Origin: Streptomyces seoulensis
Lineage (GTDB): Bacteria; Actinomycetota; Actinomycetes; Streptomycetales; Streptomycetaceae
Direction: 5' to 3'
DNA length: 64,000 bases
Assembly (NCBI RefSeq): GCF_022846655.1
Contig: NZ_AP025667.1
Span: 5,059,001 to 5,123,000 of the forward strand
Numbering within the stretch: position 1 is the first letter of the stretch; the number at the start of each line of letters is the position of its first letter. Positions 3,131 to 64,000 of the stretch are shown piece after piece. The notes beneath the pieces were generated by a model that made no database searches, was not told where the DNA came from, and saw only the letters and a program-made list of their open reading frames with translations. The position numbers and the translations under genes were made by a program.

Positions 3131-4048
3131 ATGGCTTTCGAACCGCCTCGGCGACTGGTCCGGGCGAGCCGGGAGACCGCGCCGCCCGGTGACGACTGGC
3201 TGGCCGGGCTGCCCGAGGCGGCCGAACGGGCCGTCGCACAGCGCGAGTTGACCGTGGACCGGGTGCAGGTGCCGGGCGGCCGCAGCAGTCTGGTGCTGTT
3301 GGTGCGGCGCGCGGACGGCAGCCCCGCCGTGCTGAAGCTGGCCCCCTCGCGGGCCCGGCCGGAGAGCGAGCGGGCGGCGCTGGCGCACTGGGGCGGCCTG
3401 GGTGCCGTACAGGTGTTGGACGGCGGACCCGAGGACGTGGCGGAGGGCGCGCTGCTGCTGGAGCGGCTGCATCCGGACGTCTCGGTGCGGTCGCTGCCGG
3501 AGGCCAAGGCGCTGCTGGAGGCGGCCGGGACGCTGCGCCGCCTGTGGGTGGAGCCGCCCGCCGGTCAGGGCGCGCACCGGTTCGAGACGGTCGCGGAGCG
3601 CACCGGCCGGCAGGCCGAGGCGATGGCCGCGAATGCGCTGACGGACCCCGAGGCGGCGCCTCTGGTGGACGCGGCGCTCGCGGTGCGCGAGGAGCTGCTG
3701 GCCGGGGCGCCGGACCACCGGCTGCTGCACGGCACGTTCCGGCAGAGCAAGGTGCTCGGCGGGGAGCGGCTGCCGTGGCTCGCGGTGGGTCCGGACCCGG
3801 TGGTCGGTGAGTGCGCGTTCGATCTGGCGCGGCTGGTGCGCGACCGGGTGGAGGACCTGATCGCGGTGCCGTCGGGCGCCTCGGTGACCCGGCGCCGGAT
3901 CAAGCGGCTCGCGGAGTCGCTGGAGGTGGACCAGGAGCGGCTGCGCGGCTGGACGCTGTTCCGGGCCGTGGAGTCCGGGGTGCGGGCCCGTCGGGTGGGC
4001 CGGGAACAGGACGCGGACCTGCTGCTGGAGTTCGCCACCTGGCTGTGA
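3131..4048 (+). CDS. APH-fold kinase-like protein with degraded active site
   Basis: A 305-residue member of the aminoglycoside/choline phosphotransferase fold. It retains an N-lobe lysine context (AVLKLAPSRARPESERAALAHW) and the C-lobe layout with LLHGTF and DPVVGECAFDLARL. The canonical catalytic loop HGDxxxxN is here HGTFRQSK, so the catalytic Asp and the metal-binding Asn are both replaced. Phosphotransfer by the usual mechanism is therefore doubtful and a binding or regulatory role is possible. Its ATG is 101 bp after the DUF4439 stop. It converges on proS, with a shared terminator between them. Confidence 0.8.
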   Translation: MAFEPPRRLVRASRETAPPGDDWLAGLPEAAERAVAQRELTVDRVQVPGGRSSLVLLVRRADGSPAVLKLAPSRARPESERAALAHWGGLGAVQVLDGGPEDVAEGALLLERLHPDVSVRSLPEAKALLEAAGTLRRLWVEPPAGQGAHRFETVAERTGRQAEAMAANALTDPEAAPLVDAALAVREELLAGAPDHRLLHGTFRQSKVLGGERLPWLAVGPDPVVGECAFDLARLVRDRVEDLIAVPSGASVTRRRIKRLAESLEVDQERLRGWTLFRAVESGVRARRVGREQDADLLLEFATWL

Positions 4049-4057
4049 GAGCACGAA

Positions 4058-4088
4058 AGAGCCCGGCCGCGCGGTGCGGCCGGGCTCT
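4058..4088. terminator. Bidirectional hairpin terminator
   Basis: A perfect 13-bp stem (4058-4070 with 4076-4088, arm agagcccggccgc) and a 5-base loop lie between the convergent APH-fold gene and proS. It has no strong U tract, as is usual in Streptomyces, and can serve both strands. Confidence 0.85.
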
Positions 4089-4101
4089 TCGCTGTGCCTG
4101 A

Positions 4102-5805
4102 TCAGGCGGTGAGGCGGGCGATGGCCTCCTCGACCGTCAGCTCCTCGCGCTCACCGGTCCTGCGGTCCTTCAGCTCCAGCACGCCGTCGGCGGAGCGGCG
4201 GCCGGCGACCAGGATCTGCGGGACACCGATCAGCTCGGCGTCGGTGAACTTCACGCCCGGCGAGACCCCGGCCCGGTCGTCGACCAGGACGCGGACGCCC
4301 GCGGCGGACAGCTTCTCGGCGACGTCGAGGGCCAGCTCGGTCTGGAGCGCCTTGCCCGCGGCGACCACGTGCACGTCGGCCGGGGCGACCTCCTTGGGCC
4401 AGCACAGGCCGTGCTCGTCGGCGGTCTGCTCGGCGAGGGCGGCGACGGCGCGGGAGACGCCGATGCCGTAGGAGCCCATGGTGACGCGGACCGGCTTGCC
4501 GTTCTGGCCCAGCACGTCGAGCTTGAGGGCGTCGGCGTACTTGCGGCCGAGCTGGAAGATGTGGCCGATCTCGATGGCACGGTCCAGCTTCAGCCCGGCG
4601 CCGCACTTGGGGCAGGGGTCGCCGTCCTGGACGACGACGACGTCCACGTACTCGTCGACCTCGAAGTCACGGCCGGCGACGACGTTCCTGGCGTGCGTGT
4701 GCTCCTTGTTGGCGCCGGTGATCCAGTCGGTGCCGGGGGCCACGCGGGGGTCGGCGATGTACTTGACCTTCTCGCCCAGGCCCTGCGGGCCGACGTAGCC
4801 GCGCACCAGGTCGGGGCGGCCGACGAAGTCCTCGGCGGTGACCAGCTCGACGGCGGCCGGGGCGAAGTGCTCCTCGACCTTGCCCATGTCGACCTCGCGG
4901 TCACCGGGCACGCCCACGGCGACGATCTCGCCGTCCACCTTGACCAGCAGGTTCTTCAGGGTGGCGGAGGCGGGGACGCCGAGGGAGGCGGCGAGGGTCT
5001 CGATGGTCGGGGTGTCCGGGGTGGGGATCTCCTCCAGCGCGGGCACGGCCGAGCCGTCGACCGGGGCCAGCTCGTAGTGCACGGCCTCGGTGTTGGCGGC
5101 GAAGTCGCAGTCGGGGCAGTCGGCGAAGGTGTCCTCGCCGGCCTCGGCGGGGGCGAGGAACTCCTCCGACTGTGAGCCGCCCATGGCACCGGCGGTGGCC
5201 GCGACGATGCGGTAGTCGAGGCCGAGGCGCTCGTAGATCCGCTGGTAGGCGGCGCGGTGCAGGGCGTAGGAGGAGGCCAGGCCCTCGTCCTCGGTGTCGA
5301 AGGAGTACGAGTCCTTCATCAGGAACTCGCGGCCGCGCAGGATGCCCGCGCGGGGGCGCGCCTCGTCCCGGAACTTGGACTGGATCTGGTACAGGATCAC
5401 CGGCAGGTCCTTGTAGGAGGACGCCTGGTCCTTCACCAGCAGGGTGAAGATCTCCTCGTGGGTGGGGCCGAGGAGGTAGTCGCCGCCCTTGCGGTCCTGG
5501 AGGCGGAACAGCTCGGCGCCGTACTCGTCCCAGCGGCCGGTGGCCTCGTAGGGCTCGCGCGGCAGCAGGACGGGGAGGACGACCTCCTGGGCGCCGATGG
5601 CGTCCATCTCCTCGCGCACGATCCGCTCGACGTTGGCGAGGACCTTGGTGCCCAGCGGCAGCCAGGACCAGATGCCGGCGGCGGTGCGGCGGACGTAACC
5701 GGCGCGGACGAGGAGCTTGTGGCTGAGGACCTCGGCGTCCGCCGGGTCGTCGCGCAGCGTCTTCGCCAACAACTTGGACATGCGCTGGACCGGTACGTTC
5801 GCCAT
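4102..5805 (-). CDS. proS: Prolyl-tRNA synthetase
   Basis: Charges tRNA-Pro with proline in the cytoplasm. The 567-residue length and layout fit the bacterial ProS type: class II core with GPTHEE (about 113-118), motif 2 [17 protein letters not shown] (about 145-161), a YbaK-like editing insertion at roughly 240-370, motif 3 GSYGIGVSR near 440, and a C-terminal anticodon-binding domain. The start is the ATG at 5805 with a plausible upstream purine stretch. Essential housekeeping gene, 75 bp downstream of the GNAT gene and possibly co-transcribed with it. Confidence 0.97.
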
Positions 5806-5880
5806 TTTTCTCGTACTCCTGCCGGAAATGTGGGTGATGGCTAGGAGGTTAGCCGGGGCTCCCGCGCGGGCGGAAATCGG

Positions 5881-6411
5881 TTAACGGCGGCGCAGCGGCA
5901 GGGGGGCGCCCATGACGGCGTAGGGCTTGGGGGCGCTCGGGAAGTGGACCTGGCGGGCGAGGTCGGTGTAGCCGAGGGAGTGGTACAGGCCGCGGGCGGG
6001 GCTGTCGGTGTCGATGGCGGAGAGGATGGAGCGGGGTTCGGCCGCGCTGTCGGTGATGCGGGTGATCAGGTGGCGGCCGATGCCCCGGTTCTGGTGGCCC
6101 GGGTGGACGTGCAGCTCGGTGATGACGAAGGACTCGTCGAGCCAGCCGTCGTTGCCCTGGGCGCGCAGGTAGGGCTCCACGATGGTGGACCACCAGTGGG
6201 CGCGGGAGTTGGGCATGCCGTAGACGAAGCCGATCAGCGCGCCCCGGCTGGTGGCACCGAGGGCGCGGGCGCCGGGCATGCCCATGTGGCGCTGGACGAT
6301 CTGGCGGCGTACGGCGATCTCGTCCGGGCCGAGGCCGAAGGCCAGGGCCTGCACGGCGAGGGCCTCGTCGACGTGCGCTACGAGGTCCAGGGTGCCGATC
6401 ACGAGGTCCAT
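5881..6411 (-). CDS. GNAT family N-acetyltransferase
   Basis: A 176-residue protein with the GNAT acetyl-CoA binding motif ITELHVHPGHQNRGIGRHLI (about 112-131) and the C-terminal SPARGLYHSLGYTDL. GNAT enzymes transfer acetyl groups from acetyl-CoA to amines; the substrate cannot be told from sequence. The ATG start at 6411 lies 35 bp after the stop of a second acetyltransferase gene, and proS follows, so the three may form one unit. Confidence 0.9.
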   Translation of the reverse strand: MDLVIGTLDLVAHVDEALAVQALAFGLGPDEIAVRRQIVQRHMGMPGARALGATSRGALIGFVYGMPNSRAHWWSTIVEPYLRAQGNDGWLDESFVITELHVHPGHQNRGIGRHLITRITDSAAEPRSILSAIDTDSPARGLYHSLGYTDLARQVHFPSAPKPYAVMGAPLPLRRR

Positions 6412-56950: not shown

Positions 56951-58057
56951 TTACCGCTCGGTGGCGGCGAGCTGGCCACACGCCCCGTCGATCTCCTGAC
57001 CGCGGGTGTCCCGGACGGTCACCGGCACGCCGTGCGCGGCGATGGCCTTCACGAACGCCTCCTCGTCCTCGGGACGCGAGGCGGTCCACTTGGAACCGGG
57101 GGTGGGGTTGAGCGGGATGAGGTTGACGTGCACGGGCCTGCCCTTGAGCAGCCGGCCGAGCCGGTCACCGCGCCACGCCTGGTCGTTGATGTCCCGGATC
57201 AGCGCGTACTCGATGGACAGCCGACGGCCCGACTTCTCCGCGTACTCGAACCCGGCGTCCAGGACCTCGCGCACCTTCCACCGCGTGTTCACGGGGACGA
57301 GGGTGTCGCGCAGTTCGTCGTCGGGGGCGTGCAGGGAGATCGCCAGCCGGCACTTGAAGCCCTCGTCGGCGAAGCGGTGGATGGCGGGGACCAGGCCGAC
57401 GGTCGACACGGTGATGCCGCGCTGCGACAGGCCGAGGCCGTCGGGGGCGGGGTCGGTGAGGGCGCGGATGGCGCCGACGACGCGCTTGTAGTTGGCGAGC
57501 GGCTCGCCCATGCCCATGAAGACGATGTTGGACAGCCGGGCGGGCCCGCCGGGGACCTCTCCGTCCCGGAGCGCCCGCATCCCGTCCACGATCTGGTGCA
57601 CGATCTCGGCGGTGGACAGGTTCCGGTCCAGCCCCGCCTGCCCGGTCGCGCAGAACGGGCAGTTCATGCCGCATCCGGCCTGCGAGCTGATGCACATGGT
57701 GACCCGGTCCGGGTACCGCATCAGCACGGACTCGACCAGCGTGCCGTCGAACAGCCGCCACAGCGTCTTACGGGTGGTGCCCTGGTCCGTGGACAGATGC
57801 CGGACCACCGACATCAGGTCCGGGAACAGCGCCTCCCGCAGCTTCTCCCGCGCACCGGCCGGGATGTCCGTCCAGTGCTCGGGGTCGTGCGTGTACCGCG
57901 CGAAGTAGTGCTGCGAGAGCTGCTTGGCACGAAACGGCTTCTCCCCCGCCTCGGCGACAGCGTCCTTCCGCTCCGCGGGCGAAAGGTCGGCGAGGTGCCG
58001 CGGCGGCTTCTTGGCTCCGCGGGGGGCGACGAATGTGAGTTCTCCGGGCTTGGGCAT
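56951..58057 (-). CDS. rlmN: 23S rRNA (adenine2503-C2) / dual-specificity RNA methyltransferase RlmN
   Basis: A 368-residue radical-SAM enzyme methylating A2503 of 23S rRNA and A37 of some tRNAs. The cluster motif CGMNCPFC gives Cys129, Cys133 and Cys136. The methyl-carrying Cys is probably Cys361 in [12 protein letters not shown], and [15 protein letters not shown] and [19 protein letters not shown] are typical. The ATG at 58057 gives [15 protein letters not shown] diverged copy of this start and its leader occurs near 62123-62206 on the other side of an element remnant. Confidence 0.96.
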
Positions 58058-58155
58058 GGTGATACCAGTGTCTCAGATCGACTCGGGGTGCCCAGGCCGG
58101 AGCGGGGTGGGGGTGGTCACCCGTGGGTGGCGTCTGTCGGCGTTGGTCGACCTCG

Positions 58156-58179
58156 GACGGCCCAGGGACGGCCCAGGGG
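58156..58179. repeat. Left copy of the GACGGCCCA end repeat
   Basis: The sequence gacggcccagggacggccca resembles 62036-62055 (gacggcccagagacggcccg) at 18 of 20 positions, in the same orientation. The right copy lies immediately after the integrase stop. Such paired short repeats at both ends of the remnant suggest element-end sequences. Confidence 0.6.
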
Positions 58180-58221
58180 TGCGTGCTCTGGGGATGGGAT
58201 GATCTCTCCGGAGGGGTGCGA

Positions 58222-58449
58222 GTGGACATGCTTGAGCTGATGGAGTGGCTGGCCGAGCGCGGAGTCACGACCGTCTTCAAGGTCGACGGTGACCGCATGG
58301 TTGAGCGACGGACGGCATGGATGGTCATCGTCAGCGGTGGGCCGCTCGGTGACGACTCGTTCTTCCGTGCCGACCTGGCCACGGCAGACGCATGCCTTGA
58401 CTCGTTGCTCGCCCATCTGGAGAGCAAGGGACTGTCGCCGTTCACATGA
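58222..58449 (+). CDS. Small hypothetical protein
   Basis: A 75-residue acidic protein (VDMLELMEWLAERGVTT...). It is predicted as mixed helix and strand with an EWLAERG helix, MVIVSGGPLGDD and a C-terminal helix LATADACLDSLLAHLESKG. There is a good ribosome site (ggaggggtgcga) before the GTG at 58222; the ATG at 58228 is possible. I recognise no family. It is divergent from rlmN and sits at the left edge of the element remnant, so it may be cargo. Confidence 0.65.
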   Translation: MDMLELMEWLAERGVTTVFKVDGDRMVERRTAWMVIVSGGPLGDDSFFRADLATADACLDSLLAHLESKGLSPFT

Positions 58450-58544
58450 TCAGGATGTTCCCAGAAGCTGTTGCTGCCGCTCGCAGTTCCGGCGAGCCGG
58501 GCCTCCGGATCGATCTCGGAAAACGTCGTGGCAGCGATGTCACC

Positions 58545-58569
58545 GTGGGTTCAAATCCCACCGCCTCCG
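58545..58569 (+). tRNA. tRNA 3' fragment (T arm and acceptor strand)
   Basis: GTGGG-TTCAAAT-CCCAC (58545-58561) is a perfect T arm and CGCCTCC-G follows as acceptor 3' strand and discriminator. The matching 5' acceptor GGAGGCG and the D and anticodon arms are not found upstream, so this is not a whole gene. The sequence is like the end of tRNA-Ser. It is followed by a strong terminator, as a real tRNA gene would be. It probably marks an integration site (att) of the element. Confidence 0.75.
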
Positions 58570-58588
58570 CTTGATGAGCAGTGAGAAC

Positions 58589-58619
58589 GGCGCCCGACCA
58601 GGAACATCGGTCGGGCGCC
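58589..58619 (+). terminator. Terminator downstream of the tRNA fragment
   Basis: An 11-bp perfect stem (ggcgcccgacc / ggtcgggcgcc) with a 9-base loop followed by ttcctc, 20 bp after the tRNA fragment. Confidence 0.85.
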
Positions 58620-58646
58620 TTCCTCATGCGCGGTGCCTTCTAATGA

Positions 58647-58699
58647 CCGTGGTTCCCCGTGAGTTCCCGGTCTACCGGGCACGGATGGGGCACGGCTTC
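58647..58699. repeat. Element repeat, copy A
   Basis: Contains ccgtggttccccg (58647-58659) and then ggcacggatggggca with ggcttc. A diverged second copy lies at 60547-60590. The two are in the same orientation and about 1.9 kb apart. The function is unknown. Confidence 0.55.
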
Positions 58700-59036
58700 A
58701 GTCGCCCTGGAACCACAGATAGCTGCCTGGAGTGCCGGCGCACCGCTCCAGCAACCTTGCCAGGTCGTCCAAGGCACGGAGCTGACGCTCATCGGTGCAC
58801 CGTTGCCGTAGATCGGGGATCTCACCGAGAGCAACGGCAGCCTCCTGCTCGTTCATCAGAGCATCCCCGTACGGATCTACGGCGGTCAGCCGCCCAGGCA
58901 CTCCGAGCAGCCGTAGCAAGCCGATCGCATCCGCCAACGCGTCCCCGTGCCCGAACGAACTCTGTATCAGCGTCGCTCGGGACTTGCGCCAGTTACGCGT
59001 TGGCCGTGCTGAGTGCAGCTCCACGTCTATCCCCAC
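58698..59036 (-). CDS. Hypothetical protein
   Basis: A 112-residue protein from the GTG at 59036 (VGIDVELHSARPTRNWRKSR...); a TTG at 59066 would add 10 residues. It contains SFGHGDALADAIGLLRLLGVPGRL, LMNEQEAAVALGEIPDLRQ and a C-terminal LARLLERC, with no signal peptide or membrane segment. I do not recognise a family. The codon use is less GC-biased than neighbours, in keeping with element cargo. The stop of the next gene leftward is absent; it reads toward the tRNA fragment. Confidence 0.6.
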   Translation of the reverse strand: MGIDVELHSARPTRNWRKSRATLIQSSFGHGDALADAIGLLRLLGVPGRLTAVDPYGDALMNEQEAAVALGEIPDLRQRCTDERQLRALDDLARLLERCAGTPGSYLWFQGD

Positions 59037-59105
59037 GGGCTCATGATGCCTGCTACAGAGACTCAACCTCTGATCCGTAGCTCTAGCCAGCTCGGTCTAG
59101 GACGG

Positions 59106-59498
59106 TCATTCCGGTCGCTCCGAGGCCTCTGAGGGACGCCGATGGGCGGGGGCAGTTGTTGGGGTTGCGGTACCGCGCTGCTGTACGGCTTGCTTCGCTG
59201 CCAGGTTCCGGGCGTGAGCTTCACGTCGCAGCCGCCGTTCGTAGTCGGCGATCTGACGGGCAACGGGGACGCTGGTGGACGTTCGGATCAACCGCTCGTT
59301 TTCACGATCCACCAGGAAAGGACCGTTGCCCCCCAATCGAGGGCGCTGTCCCTGACCGTCCCAGACGGCTCCCCAGTAGAAGATCCACCCGAACGGCAAG
59401 GCCACCACGCGCAGGATCCGAAGGTCGTACTCGACGCAGCCCCGTGCGCCGTCGATCTCGGCAAGCACCAGTCTGCGCGCGTCCTCCTCGGTCAGCAT
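59106..59498 (-). CDS. YrhB/Imm35-like immunity-type protein
   Basis: A 130-residue protein. The first 85 residues (LTEEDARRLVLAEIDGARG, RVVALPFGWIFYWGAVWDG, LGGNGPFLVDRENERLIRTSTSVPVARQIADYERR) match the YrhB domain, proposed to be an immunity protein fold (Imm35). A basic/Ala tail of about 45 residues follows. No polymorphic toxin gene is adjacent. I chose the ATG at 59498. It sits inside the element remnant, so it may be an orphan immunity gene. Confidence 0.78.
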   Translation of the reverse strand: MLTEEDARRLVLAEIDGARGCVEYDLRILRVVALPFGWIFYWGAVWDGQGQRPRLGGNGPFLVDRENERLIRTSTSVPVARQIADYERRLRREAHARNLAAKQAVQQRGTATPTTAPAHRRPSEASERPE

Positions 59499-59704
59499 CG
59501 CCCGATGATGGCATGGCGCCTTCACACGCCGGGACGTTTCACGCCTGGCGTACACCCGCTTTAGGAGCGAGGTTGGGTAGCTCCGGGCCTGACCTGTGGG
59601 TTTCCACCCGTGGAAGGGGTGGACCGATCGTGCCTTTGAGCACCGTAGTTCCCCCTGGGGGCCCGCCTGTTCTAGCACGAGAGTGGCACAGCGCCGGGCC
59701 CGTT

Positions 59705-59718
59705 TGACTAGCCAGTCA
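59705..59718. repeat. Short palindrome TGACT-AGCC-AGTCA
   Basis: Five-base arms around AGCC at 59705-59718. It overlaps the stop codon of the small membrane protein gene that follows. It could be an operator, but the significance is low. Confidence 0.3.
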
Positions 59719-59955
59719 GATGTCCAGCCGCCGCGGATCACCGGGGACCGTCCGTATCCAGGAGCGCAGTTTCCAGCAGACTGCGATGGGCCCCACGAGC
59801 ATGCAAAGCATCCACAGGCCCACGCTGGCGGGGGAGATCATGTAGTACTCCCACCGCTCCGGAAGCAGGGCTGGAAGTGCGATCGCCAGCACGAGGGAAA
59901 GCCACGTGCCTATCACCGTGAGTACGGCCTTAGACACGATTACCGCTCTCCGCAT
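59716..59955 (-). CDS. Small two-span membrane protein
   Basis: A 79-residue protein with two hydrophobic segments (IVSKAVLTVIGTWLSLVLAIALP and SVGLWMLCMLVGPIAVCW) and a short Arg/Pro C-terminal tail. The ATG at 59955 follows a ggggaa site. It is probably an inner-membrane protein of unknown role, carried by the element and oriented like the neighbouring immunity-type gene. Confidence 0.65.
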   Translation of the reverse strand: MRRAVIVSKAVLTVIGTWLSLVLAIALPALLPERWEYYMISPASVGLWMLCMLVGPIAVCWKLRSWIRTVPGDPRRLDI

Positions 59956-60136
59956 TGCATTCCCCGCCTTCGATGTTCTCCTTCGGCCGTAGATTACATC
60001 GCGATTTTTTGAGGTCTGGCCTCATCTTTATCAGGTCGATCACGGCCCGCCTGGGGGCTGGAGGGACCCCAGCCCTAGGACAACCTTCTGACTGCCAGGG
60101 GCCGCTCCCGTCCGGTCGTGTTCGTCGCTGTTGGTG

Positions 60137-60454
60137 TCAGCCGTTGGTGTCAGGCGTCAGACCTGTTCTTGACAGATCAGCCCCCTGTGGCGTCTTCCGG
60201 TGCCGCCGGCCCTGGGCCCGCCACGTCAGCGCGACGCCAGCCAGCATGAGCAGACTCTGGCCGTGGAAGGGCACCAGCCAAGTTGCCGTGAGGCTCGCAG
60301 CAATCAGCGACGTCCCAGCACCCCACACGCGAGGCTGTTTGACTCCCTTGCGCACCCAAGGGAATGCGATGCGCCCAGTCGTCATGGCCAACAAGCCGGT
60401 CACGGTTAGTGTCAAGGCCATCACGAGAATGAGCACAAGAACGACAGGCGACAC
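60137..60454 (-). CDS. Small three-span membrane protein
   Basis: A 105-residue protein with three hydrophobic segments (VVLVLILVMALTLTVTGLLA, VWGAGTSLIAASLTATWLV, SLLMLAGVALTW) and a basic C-terminal tail. The GTG at 60454 follows gggggaggg. No family is recognised. Together with the 79-residue gene it gives the remnant two membrane proteins on the same strand. Confidence 0.65.
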   Translation of the reverse strand: MSPVVLVLILVMALTLTVTGLLAMTTGRIAFPWVRKGVKQPRVWGAGTSLIAASLTATWLVPFHGQSLLMLAGVALTWRAQGRRHRKTPQGADLSRTGLTPDTNG

Positions 60455-60546
60455 AGGACCCTCCCCCGGCGCCTTCTCTAGGCACTCGCCGTAATGATCT
60501 CAGCGCTCCACGGGGGGCACAATGCCGTGAGCCTGACCGGTGTTCG

Positions 60547-60590
60547 CCGTGGTTCCCCGCTCGATCAGGCACGGTTGGGGCATGCCTTCT
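60547..60590. repeat. Element repeat, copy B
   Basis: Contains ccgtggttccccg (60547-60559), identical to copy A at 58647, then ggcacggttggggca with gccttc. It lies between the small membrane gene and the GntR fragment. Confidence 0.55.
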
Positions 60591-60674
60591 GATCCGTAGC
60601 TGCAGAGATCGGTCATCAGCGGTCATACAGGCTGCCTGAAGAGTGCTGATGGGTACTGCTGGGCGTAGTCCCTT

Positions 60675-61280
60675 CGATGGCATGCGGGAGCGGACTTCCT
60701 CGCGGAAGTGCACAGGCTTGTAGCCGAGTTCGGCAAGCCTGGCGTAGGTGCCGCCTGGCCCTGTGTCCTTCTGGGTGATCGCGGAGTCGGCGACCAGCGA
60801 CATGGGCAGGTAGCTCGTTGCGAGCAGGACGGGCTTGCCATCAAGGACGAAGCGCCGACGCCGCACGCAGACCCGCTCGCCATCATCAAGGTCTAGAACG
60901 GCGCTGACGTGATCCGGCGCGACCTCTTCGCACACCGTGACCTGATCAACCTCAAGGGCACGATTCTCAGTGTCGGCGGACCAGATCGACCGGCCGCTGC
61001 CCCACTGCTTCTGGGACAACCGCTGAATGCCTCGACGACGAAGCGGCTTGAAGTCCCGGACGAACACGCCGGCACCCTTGCGGGCCTCGACTACACCCTC
61101 GTCGCGGAGCACGCTCAGCGCTTGCCGCGCAGTCATGCGGGCCACGCCGTGCGCGGCCATCAGCTCGTTCTCTCCCGGAAGCCGATCACCCGGACCGTAC
61201 TCGCCCGACTGGATCGCCTCGCGCAGGGAGTCCGCGATCCGTTGGTACTTGGGCCGACGGTCATCGTCGGTGCTGGCCAT
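60675..61280 (-). pseudogene. GntR-family regulator, truncated at the 3' end
   Basis: Begins with a good ribosome site (aaggaggagagg) and ATG at 61280. The winged helix (PKYQRIADSLREAIQSGEY, DRLPGENELMAAHGVARMTARQALSVLRDEGVVEARK) and a UTRA-type ligand domain (VRRRRFVLDGKPVLLATSYLP, EEVRSRMPS) are intact to residue about 202. The frame then runs into unrelated sequence, so the last 40-50 residues usual for the family are missing. KorSA-type GntR repressors of this form control transfer genes of Streptomyces elements. Probably non-functional. Confidence 0.75.
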
Positions 61281-61327
61281 TCGGGAGCCTCTCCTCCTTG
61301 ATCGATGGAACTTCGTCAAGACGCTTC

Positions 61328-61341
61328 GACGTTTTGACGTC
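61328..61341. promoter_or_regulatory. Palindrome upstream of the GntR gene
   Basis: GACGT-TTTG-ACGTC at 61328-61341, 48-61 bp upstream of the GntR start. GntR repressors of this type usually bind inverted repeats at their own promoter, so autoregulation is possible. Confidence 0.35.
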
Positions 61342-61389
61342 TTTTCCAGGTCTCTAGACAGCTTGGGCCATAGGTATGTCGGTCGCGCT

Positions 61390-62037
61390 ATGCATGTAAC
61401 CGCGATCCATCTCCGATACCGGCCCATGGTCGACATGGGCGCCGGCTGCGGTCTTCGGCAAGGGGAGATCGTGGGGCTGGCTGAGGACGCCCTCGACTTC
61501 GAGAACGGCACCGTGCACGTGGTCCGGCAGGTGAAGCTGATCCGCGGCAAGGCCGTGTTCGCCCCGCCGAAATGCAACAAGGAGCGTGACGTGCCGTTGC
61601 CGTCGTCGGTGGTCGACGCGTTACGTGCCCACATGGACCGATACACGCCAGTGGAGATCACGTTGCCGTGGCGGAAGCCTGACGGCCCGAAGGTATCGGC
61701 ACGCCTGCTGTTCACGAACACCGCGAGCGGGTTGGTCTGGCGCAGCAACTTCAACATCCAGGAATGGAAGCCCGCGCTCGCCTCAGCCGGCCTGATCGCG
61801 GAAGCAGGGGACGACGGGAAGTACGCGTTCGCCCGCGAGCACGGGATGCACGCCCTGCGGCACTTCTATGCTTCGGTGCTCCTGGACGCCGGCGAGAGCA
61901 TCAAGGCCGTGAGCGAGTACCTGGGCCACTCCGATCCGGGGCTGACGCTGCGGGTCTACGCGCACCTGATGCCGTCGAGTCAGGAACGCACCCGGAAGGC
62001 CGTGGACACGGTGCTGCTGCCCGCTCCTCGAACCTGA
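61390..62037 (+). pseudogene. Tyrosine recombinase (integrase), N-terminally truncated
   Basis: A 215-residue catalytic domain. The first catalytic Arg is in GAGCGLRQGEIVGL. HALRHFY supplies the His and second Arg, and YLGHSDPGLTLRVYAHLMP the third His and nucleophilic Tyr. Full-length integrases of these elements are near 390-400 residues, so about 170 residues including the core-binding domain are missing; the frame is open upstream but without homology. The 3' end is complete. It could not bind att DNA normally. Confidence 0.8.
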
Positions 62038-62055
62038 CGGCCCAGAGACGGCCCG
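62036..62055. repeat. Right copy of the GACGGCCCA end repeat
   Basis: Overlaps the integrase stop. It matches the left copy at 58156 at 18 of 20 bases, same orientation. Confidence 0.6.
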
Positions 62056-62122
62056 ACGGCCCCGACCGAGCCCCCTGCCTGGCGCTAAACTCCCTGGTAG
62101 GGGGCTTGTTCGTGCCCGGCCA

Positions 62123-62206
62123 CTGCAAGTTCTCCGGGCTTCGGCATAACCCTTCCAGTGTCGCAGATCAACACGGCCCGCCCAGGCCAGAGGCGGGTGT
62201 GCGCGG
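62123..62206 (-). pseudogene. Diverged copy of the rlmN start codon region and leader
   Basis: Read leftward, the stretch aligns with the 85 bp around the real rlmN start: ggtgaccxcxcacaccc, gcctgggc, gatctgcgacactgg and then ATG with MPKPGEL, after which homology ends. The leader and first seven codons are therefore repeated about 4.1 kb from the functional gene, in the same orientation. The divergence (roughly a quarter of positions) is too great for a recent duplication. Confidence 0.7.
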
Positions 62207-62683
62207 TCACCTCCGGGGGACGACTGCGGACGTATCCACCTCCGGAGCACCCTCGTCGGCCCGACCGGAGCAGCAGCCGCCGGCCGGGGCGGGGGCGGCG
62301 CTCTTGCCCAGGGTGCCGGCGTCGGCCTTGACCACGTAGACCTCCCAGGGCTCCTTGCCGGGGCCGTGGACCCACACCTTGTCCTGGAGGGCGTAGCAGC
62401 AGGAGGTGTCGCGCTCCTCGAAGGCGGCCAGGCCGGCTTCCTTCAGCCGTCCGGTCGCCGCGGAGACCTGGTCGGTGGAGTCGACCTCGACGCCGAGGTG
62501 GTCCAGGCGGGTGTCCTGTCCGGGCTCGCCTTCGATCAGGACGAGCTTGAGCGGCGGTTCGGTGATCGCGAAGTTGGCGTAGCCGTCGCGCCGCTTCGCC
62601 GGTTCGACGCCGAACAGCTTCGAGTAGAAGTCGACCGACGCTTCGAGGTCGCTGACGCGGAGGGCGAGCTGGACGCGAGACAT
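62207..62683 (-). CDS. arsI: ArsI-type C-As lyase / CadI-like VOC dioxygenase
   Basis: A 158-residue VOC protein (MSRVQLALRVSDLEASVDFY). The vicinal cysteine pair Cys95-Cys96 in DTSCCYALQDKVWV is the mark of ArsI lyases that cleave the carbon-arsenic bond of methylarsenite. Gln5, His62 and Glu114 are candidates for the iron site. A second Cys pair (GGCCSG, about 137-138) lies in the tail. It is divergent from arsR and the ACR3 pump, giving an arsenic detoxification cluster. ATG start at 62683. Confidence 0.9.
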   Translation of the reverse strand: MSRVQLALRVSDLEASVDFYSKLFGVEPAKRRDGYANFAITEPPLKLVLIEGEPGQDTRLDHLGVEVDSTDQVSAATGRLKEAGLAAFEERDTSCCYALQDKVWVHGPGKEPWEVYVVKADAGTLGKSAAPAPAGGCCSGRADEGAPEVDTSAVVPRR

Positions 62684-62762
62684 GGCGGTGCTCCCATCGA
62701 CTTGCATTGACATCTGTCGATGCAACATTGCGCCCTGCATAGAAGCCTGTCAATATCGAAGC

Positions 62763-63170
62763 ATGTCGAAGCAAGAGCCTGCCGTGTCGGACCGGACCTC
62801 CGGGGACGATGACTGCTGCCCGGGACTGCTGACCGCTCCCCTGGGCGAGGACCAGGCGGTCGAGTTGGCGAAGGTGTTCAAGGCACTGGGGGACCCGGTC
62901 AGGCTGCGGCTGCTGTCGCTGATCGCTTCGAGGGCGGGCGGGGAGGTCTGCGTCTGTGACCTGACTCCGGCGTTCGACCTGTCCCAGCCGACCATCTCCC
63001 ATCACCTCAAGCTGCTGCGCCAGGCCGGCCTCATCGACTGCGAGCGGCGCGGCACCTGGGTCTACTACTGGTCGCTGCCGGAGACGACCGACCGTCTCGC
63101 GGGCATCCTCACCCGCCCGAGCGGCGAGCCCCTGCCCCTCCACGCGGAGACCGCCGGAGCGTCGTCGTGA
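62763..63170 (+). CDS. arsR: ArsR/SmtB-family metalloregulator
   Basis: A 135-residue repressor with a winged helix (VFKALGDPVRLRLLSLIASR, DLSQPTISHHLKLLRQAGLI). Metal-site cysteines are likely in VCVCDL (Cys63, Cys65) and DCCPG (Cys18, Cys19), which suits As(III). It probably represses arsI and the pump from the 80-bp divergent spacer. The ATG at 62763 follows caatat by six bases, suggesting a leaderless transcript. Confidence 0.92.
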   Translation: MSKQEPAVSDRTSGDDDCCPGLLTAPLGEDQAVELAKVFKALGDPVRLRLLSLIASRAGGEVCVCDLTPAFDLSQPTISHHLKLLRQAGLIDCERRGTWVYYWSLPETTDRLAGILTRPSGEPLPLHAETAGASS

Positions 63171-64000
63171 GCATGAGCGCACCTGACCGGAACGTGGCCG
63201 GACGCCTGTCGTTCCTGGACCGTCATCTGGCGCTGTGGATCCTCGCCGCGATGGTGGCCGGGCTCGGCCTGGGGCGCCTGGTGCCCGGGCTCGGGGACAC
63301 GCTGGCGACGGTGACCGTGAGCGGGGTGTCCCTGCCGATCGCGGCGGGCCTGCTCGTGATGATGTACCCGGTGCTGGCCAAGGTCCGCTACGACCGCCTC
63401 GACACCGTCACCCGGGACCGCCGGCTCCTGTTGCCCTCGCTGCTGCTGAACTGGATCGTCGGCCCCGCGCTCATGTTCGCCCTGGCCTGGCTGTTCCTGC
63501 CGGACCTGCCCGAGTACCGCACCGGCCTGATCATCGTCGGCCTCGCCCGCTGCATCGCCATGGTCGTCATCTGGAACGACCTCGCCTGCGGAGACCGCGA
63601 GGCCGCCGCCGTCCTGGTCGCCCTGAACTCCGTGTTCCAGGTGATCGCGTTCTCGGCCCTCGGCTGGTTCTACCTGAGCTTCCTGCCCGGCCTGCTCGGC
63701 CTGGCGCAGAGCGGACTGGACGTCTCGGTCTGGGAGATCGCCCGCAGCGTGCTGATCTTCCTGGGCATCCCGCTCGCGGCCGGCTACCTCACCCGCCGCA
63801 TCGGCGAGAGGACCAGGGGCCGCACCTGGTACGAGTCGAAGCTGATCCCGCGCGTCGGCCCCTTCGCCCTCTACGGACTGCTGTTCACCGTCGTCATCCT
63901 CTTCGCCCTCCAAGGCGACGCCATCACGTCCAAGCCCCTCGACGTGGCCCGCATCGCCCTGCCGCTGCTGGTCTACTTCGCGCTCATGTGGTCCGGCTCC
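63167..64000 (+). CDS. acr3: ACR3-family arsenite efflux transporter, N-terminal part
   Basis: Partial gene running off the right edge (about 278 codons seen). It starts at the GTG overlapping the arsR stop (GTGA), or at the ATG at 63173. The protein has many membrane segments (LALWILAAMVAGLGLGRLVPGL, LNWIVGPALMFALAWLF) and the ACR3 signature GLARCIAMVVIWNDLACGD with the catalytic Cys. It exports arsenite from the cytoplasm. Co-transcribed with arsR. Confidence 0.93.
   Translation, partial: MSMSAPDRNVAGRLSFLDRHLALWILAAMVAGLGLGRLVPGLGDTLATVTVSGVSLPIAAGLLVMMYPVLAKVRYDRLDTVTRDRRLLLPSLLLNWIVGPALMFALAWLFLPDLPEYRTGLIIVGLARCIAMVVIWNDLACGDREAAAVLVALNSVFQVIAFSALGWFYLSFLPGLLGLAQSGLDVSVWEIARSVLIFLGIPLAAGYLTRRIGERTRGRTWYESKLIPRVGPFALYGLLFTVVILFALQGDAITSKPLDVARIALPLLVYFALMWSGS

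Follow-up and report, generated by a model that had tools for sequence, protein, structure and literature searches.

A probable decayed integrative element at the start of rlmN in Streptomyces seoulensis

Why does the start of rlmN occur twice, 4.1 kb apart, in the genome of Streptomyces seoulensis? We analysed a stretch of 64,000 nucleotides (the window), bases 5059001-5123000 of the 6.54-Mb single-contig genome (G000; G and L numbers denote genomes and loci). An initial annotation of this stretch had suggested the remnant of an integrative element, with the rlmN leader carried in by an unusual recombination event, or else a fossil tandem rlmN. From comparison with other genomes, we conclude that a decayed element of the AICE type (actinomycete integrative and conjugative element) very probably sits in the start of rlmN, between rlmN and cdsA, and that the two copies are its left and right attachment sites (attL and attR).

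Results

The repeat and what lies between its copies

The initial annotation reported that the leader and first codons of rlmN recur about 4.1 kb away in the same orientation, and this holds. Positions 58027-58143 and 62117-62233 on the same strand, aligned without gaps, are identical at 84 of 117 bases. When the 117-mer was slid along the window, the right copy scored 10.0 standard deviations over the mean offset, and the runner-up offsets reached 60/117 (plus strand) and 57/117 (minus strand). A genome-wide search gave 84 bp of the repeat as its best match (E 9.1e-12). The repeat extends from the first codons of rlmN to about 86 bp 5' of the start codon, and contains the 40-bp core considered below. 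A search for a third core in 40 kb of the same genome, on both strands and allowing as many as 6 substitutions, recovered the two known cores alone. The main features are as follows.

56951-58057, minus strand: intact rlmN (368 amino acids; open frame; TIGR00048 at 323 bits, cut-off 290; Radical_SAM and RlmN_N), its first codons being the putative integration site
58038-58077, plus strand: putative left core (attL), rlmN codons 1-7 and leader (core pattern with one mismatch; G000:C1:5117038-5117077)
58156-58174, plus strand: left arm repeat pair, GACGGCCC twice, 119 bp after the core start (putative integrase arm site)
58228-58449, plus strand: short open reading frame (ORF), 73 amino acids from an inner ATG (the longer frame, 58123-58449, has no Pfam match)
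60671-61282, minus strand: 3'-truncated gene for a GntR/UTRA regulator, C-terminal end missing (PF00392, and UTRA profile positions 4-99 of 141)
61378-62037, plus strand: integrase, catalytic part only (PF00589, E 1.5e-16)
62036-62054, plus strand: right arm repeat pair, about 91 bp before the right core
62128-62167, plus strand: putative right core (attR; core pattern with zero mismatches)

Several further short ORFs lie between the two copies. The contents that the initial annotation had listed were all recovered. Its gacggccca repeat near each end corresponds to the 19-nucleotide repeats at 58156-58174 and 62036-62054, which are 95% identical. Its truncated integrase has 219 residues, as compared to 525 amino acids in a complete relative (L024), and is 81-91% identical to the rlmN-type integrases of many relatives; its frame runs into the right GACGGCCC pair. 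Its truncated GntR gene is cut at 60671, where DNA similarity to a full GntR gene of the same genome (L206:8568-9326) ends, and the fragment is 94% identical to G000:C1:783552-784176, at 0.78 Mb. (L206, which is G000:C1:775000-792000, has integrase, excisionase-like, transfer-like and GntR genes in one block, as named by eye.)

Compared with an intact AICE, the window retains direct-repeat attachment sites at both ends (two cores with arm pairs on their inner sides), and of the site-specific integrase it has the catalytic part alone, though the family membership of that part is clear. A Pfam scan of the window's ORFs detected no FtsK/SpoIIIE-type transfer protein, and tblastn between the cores gave no match to the L024 transfer protein (E 1e-6) or, for replication, to the Prim-Pol of L024 or the protein that follows it. 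With the integrase and GntR genes cut and no transfer or replication match left, the element looks dead.

The same arrangement across the genus

In relatives, cdsA-frr-pyrH-tsf adjoin rlmN on its 5' side. In G005, G007 and G032, a longer element lies between rlmN and cdsA, bounded by two 40-bp cores, which are identical in G005 and G032 and one base apart in G007. The element of G005 (L024) looks complete: between identical cores it has a GntR gene, a Prim-Pol, an FtsK-like protein (below the Pfam cut-off) and the 525-amino-acid integrase. These longer elements between the same two cores bear out the idea of an integrative-element remnant in the window, which has the same location and a core at each end.

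We searched 392 genomes of the genus for the core pattern, allowing up to 3 mismatches, and found it in 279. From the counts we picked by eye the 33 genomes with at least two same-direction matches; together with G009 this made 34, for which every match position was listed. A same-strand pair of cores at most 20 kb apart on one contig was present in 25 of the 392 genomes. We dropped G192, in which the whole block from rlmN to tsf is duplicated, and this left 24, the window's genome included. We excluded genomes whose two matches are on different contigs (G105, G166, G206, G238, G303, G391, G396) or are separated by 3.9 Mb (G278), and G009 is outside the 24 since its second core has 4 mismatches. 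In G192 (L085, 2797-15999, oriented with rlmN on the left), rlmN-cdsA-frr-pyrH-tsf stands twice in tandem, about 8.9 kb apart; no element genes were found there, and it is either a real duplication or an assembly error.

For 23 of the 24 pairs (all except G079), we examined the surroundings of the cores. The left arm pair lies 118-141 bp after the start of the left core in 23/23 (one mismatch allowed), and the right arm pair lies 88-91 bp before the right core in 21/23. Window-type integrase sequence is present between the cores in all 23, although it amounts to merely about 27 residues in L080 and L094. Past the right core, 21 of the 23 have cdsA, and the stretches for the other two (L093 and L096) end short of it. 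The paired repeats at these spacings contain ACGGCCC. An exact arm-gap-core pattern was found in 23/392 genomes, and a reversed control had none among the matches listed. Fixed spacing on either side of a core is how arm sites look in a lambda-type attP. Because the paired ACGGCCC repeats hold set distances from the cores, with the integrase family in between, the gacggccca repeats probably serve the integrase as arm sites.

The integrase group and its target sites

We also searched the window's integrase against named genomes and kept the best 80 of 155 relatives; some of these genomes are also in the genus census, and the two sets are not independent. The rlmN core (with up to 6 substitutions) is present at 40 of the 41 loci whose integrase is 71-91% identical to the window's (the exception is L139), as compared to 1 of the 39 loci at 65-70% identity (L147). 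The window's integrase belongs to the former group, which sits at rlmN elsewhere. Taken together, as judged by comparison across these loci, the integrase group, the core and the arms mark the start of rlmN as the element's site, and integration places element DNA directly 5' of rlmN.

The sister group at 65-70% identity (for example, L156:10729-11565) shares the arm repeat pair after the integrase gene but sits elsewhere. Among 16 of its 39 loci, which were picked for having an arm pair behind the integrase gene, 14 are at the 3' end of a histidine phosphatase-family gene; the remaining two, L154 and L184, have a third site in common. The target gene read in L156 belongs to this family, and by motif we take it to be phosphoglycerate mutase. 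Because sister loci with the same arm pair sit at other sites, we read these integrases as keeping their arms while changing their core. Among plasmid records, the best integrase match was 63% identical, and just two records fell in the 60-80% range. A literature search for an AICE with phosphoglycerate mutase found none.

Which leader belongs to the element

58078-58155, plus strand: leader from the core to the left arm pair, now 5' of rlmN and read as element-supplied

We assembled 120 non-redundant core copies from the collected loci. Many of these loci were chosen because they have an element, so the proportions are not prevalences. Copies were labelled as rlmN-coding by a simple residue test, which may have mislabelled a few of them (L027 and L059 have a left arm yet failed it). 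The right arm precedes the core in 0 of the 60 rlmN-coding copies, and the left arm follows it in 37. Of the other 60 copies, 54 have the right arm. Over the 60 bases past the core, 35/37 rlmN leaders with the arm are closest to another arm-bearing leader, and the nearest leader of the other 2 is armless. For the 23 armless leaders, the nearest is armless in 12 cases and arm-bearing in 9, with 2 ties. Among the 54 attR copies, 26 are nearest to armless leaders and 23 to arm-bearing leaders, and 5 are tied; the strongest attR matches are all to armless leaders (L145, 60/60; L087, 59/60; L024, L130 and L134, 58/60).

Because 35 of the 37 arm-bearing leaders are closest to one another's kind, we conclude from this comparison that the leader adjoining rlmN is supplied by the element. 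The initial annotation's idea that the leader was carried in agrees with this, as the rlmN-adjacent leader in the window bears the element's arm repeats. The sequence past the right core appears to be native or, in a good part of cases, nearer to an element's arm. L107 gives a direct view of accretion: another left arm pair comes after a right core.

Upstream of the start codon, TGCGACACT is conserved in 60 cores, although the cores were picked by pattern and this conservation is partly built in. One idea is that TGCGACACT is a candidate extended -10 promoter element.

A proposed mechanism

We propose that a circular element carried an attP consisting of an arm pair, about 72 bp, the core, about 80 bp and another arm pair. 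The tyrosine integrase would recombine this attP with the rlmN copy of that core (codons 1-7, start codon and leader), which would leave attL beside rlmN and attR towards cdsA. Strand exchange may occur near the rlmN-coding end of the core, in the part with codons 3-7, so rlmN would receive its start codon, leader and upstream DNA from the element and would still be expressed. The core includes both this start codon and the conserved block that precedes it, and these would keep rlmN expressed. At the codon 3-7 end of the core is AGTTCTCCGGG, which is 11 nucleotides long. The direct repeat of an rlmN AICE is also given as 11 nucleotides (PMC9513070), a match in length only.

Several observations weigh against this account. 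The two cores in the window are identical at 32/40 bases, and with 8/40 different the exact direct repeat is gone, so the exchange point is not readable at this locus. The right arm pair is not at its usual place in L086 and L096. We saw no empty site from the same species. Also, the expectation that the right side is native appears valid in only part of the cases (26 of 54 attR copies are nearer to armless leaders).

A tRNA-Ser(UGA) fragment inside the remnant

58507-58570, plus strand: 3' part of tRNA-Ser(UGA), read as the attachment-site fragment of a tRNA-Ser-targeting element (92% to L207:3991-4054)
58520-59193, plus strand: terminator-like inverted repeat, arm-like sequence and short ORF (93% to G000:C1:4371547-4372220, 674 bp)
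60524-60635, plus strand: second copy of the tRNA-Ser-type arm-like sequence, in two pieces (77-80% to parts of L021)

The tRNA 3' fragment noted in the initial annotation corresponds to positions 25-88 of an intact tRNA-Ser(UGA) in the same genome (L207:3967-4054), and ARAGORN found no complete tRNA in the window. The fragment spans from near the anticodon to the 3' end, and attachment sites in tRNA genes often run between these points. Behind it lie a terminator-like repeat and an arm-like segment, which is also found after intact tRNA-Ser(UGA) genes of other genomes (for example, in G009). We rejected the idea that a tRNA gene is native to the rlmN locus, as ARAGORN found none in 14 rlmN loci (L022-L034 and L036). 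The fragment is present in 3/37 arm-bearing rlmN leaders (G000, G009 and G033) and 0/23 armless leaders. Another short rlmN remnant (L078, from G236) has a different tRNA 3'-end-like T arm, about 1.04 kb inside its left core on the minus strand.

How did the fragment get there? The tRNA-Ser 3' part and its arm-like neighbours probably come from a tRNA-Ser-targeting element that merged into the remnant. We consider it an even bet that the fragment was a later addition, brought by a tRNA-Ser-type AICE through integration into the rlmN remnant or recombination with it. This accretion would fit the 4.37-Mb region of the same genome (L021, G000:C1:4366000-4379000), where ARAGORN finds no tRNA and such fragments with the same arm-like neighbour occur twice; tRNA remnants are described as usable sites (PMC3218068). 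It would also fit the ORF before the fragment, which is different in G000, G009 and G033, and the short or broken integrase sequence of all three. Against it, the fragment is 428-487 bp from the core start in all three genomes, a near-constant distance, as if it had been inherited with the element. This distance is what a second, tentative explanation would predict: possibly, though we find it somewhat doubtful, the remnant keeps a fossil attP from a tRNA-Ser(UGA) AICE that gained the rlmN integrase-and-attP module beside its old attP, and the tRNA-Ser 3' part would therefore lie at a near-fixed distance inside the rlmN left arm.

The two tRNA-Ser 3' fragments of L021 are at 3970-4148 and 5548-6221 of that locus, with similar arm-like sequence after each and a different short ORF before each.

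Sequence beyond the right core

62168-62233, plus strand: stretch past the right core, like the left-arm leader of another element and read as an older-insertion remnant (76/84 bases to G025, counted from 62128)

At the right core, the window is identical to the single leader of G025 over 45 bases and to that of G024 over 47. It is unlikely, in our view, that the stretch past it is the lineage's native rlmN leader and that the start of rlmN was replaced only once. The 76/84-base match to the single leader of G025 could be read that way, the arm pair is lacking after the window's right copy, and native leaders do vary, as 12/23 armless leaders are closest to armless ones. However, the matching G025 and G024 leaders both bear an arm pair, the window's right copy is nearer to an arm-bearing leader (L016, 46/60) than to any armless one (L030 at best, 41/60), and accretion is directly visible in L107. 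Because the stretch looks like the arm of an older element, we think instead that the start of rlmN in the window was probably replaced twice, first by an older element, whose leader is still used by G025 and G024, and then by the element that has now decayed. The older leader, received earlier by rlmN, would have been pushed 4.1 kb off by the younger element.

From 62207 to 64000, between the right core and cdsA, there are genes for a glyoxalase, an arsR-type regulator and a sodium/bile-acid symporter family protein; cdsA, frr, pyrH and tsf follow further on, outside the window. The glyoxalase stop codon is inside the stretch that resembles the older arm. The glyoxalase has no match in the other rlmN loci searched, so these genes may be cargo of an older element.

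Finally, the initial annotation had also suggested a fossil tandem rlmN; a duplication of this kind, with erosion and the arrival of mobile DNA afterwards, would account for two rlmN starts in the same orientation, and duplication of the whole block is known to happen (G192 has rlmN to tsf twice), but we reject it as having almost no chance of being correct, given that the right copy has no rlmN past the first codons in the core, that the element's right arm pair precedes it, as in 21/23 examined pairs and at 54/60 non-coding core copies, and that a complete-looking element is present in L024.

Discussion

The decayed AICE-type element that we propose is of a kind already known in Streptomyces; for the most part it is an ordinary case, and some additional features are instructive. 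AICE03 of Streptomyces sp. RLB3-6 is reported as inserted in rlmN, and site change by integrase exchange, AICE decay and accretion are all described in the same report (Choufa et al. 2022, PMC9513070). It was the one paper that our literature search on rlmN and Streptomyces integrative elements or genomic islands returned. With an element-like pair in 24/392 genomes of the genus and an AICE in rlmN in print (PMC9513070), calling the event "unusual" was an overstatement. The window's element resembles AICE03, as described there, in being an AICE in rlmN, but only 4.1 kb of it remain, its cores have diverged and a tRNA-Ser fragment is nested inside it. A literature search that covered main texts, mostly of open-access papers, yielded no published account of the arm anatomy at rlmN, of a count across the genus or of the nested tRNA-Ser fragment.

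Most tyrosine-integrase AICEs are reported to use tRNA 3' ends, the pSLS integrase subfamily excepted (Ghinet et al. 2011, PMC3218068). As in AICEs in general, according to that source, the window's integrase is a tyrosine integrase, and its intact relative L024 has a Prim-Pol, an FtsK-like protein and a GntR gene. SXT/R391 integrative and conjugative elements in prfC and IMEVchUSA3 in dusA are reported to give the gene a new promoter and start (PMC8409611, PMC2786100). The window's element is similar to these in integrating in the 5' end of a conserved gene; however, the hosts and genes are unrelated, and in the window at most the first codons would change. Also, as reported in these sources, dusA expression was measured for IMEVchUSA3, whereas rlmN expression in the window is inferred.

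Overall, the odd repeat would be explained by ordinary site-specific recombination. For the AICE integrase group at rlmN, we propose a defined attB and attP (core, arm repeats and spacings), which are a potential integration tool. These loci supply cases for the study of accretion and target-site change. They would also be an example of mobile DNA exchanging the start codon and upstream DNA of a gene related to translation, comparable to SXT in prfC and IMEVchUSA3 in dusA. If the fossil attP is real, it would be a DNA record of an element that gave up a tRNA 3' end as its target in favour of a protein-coding gene's start, and would also record that the start of rlmN has been replaced repeatedly by successive elements.

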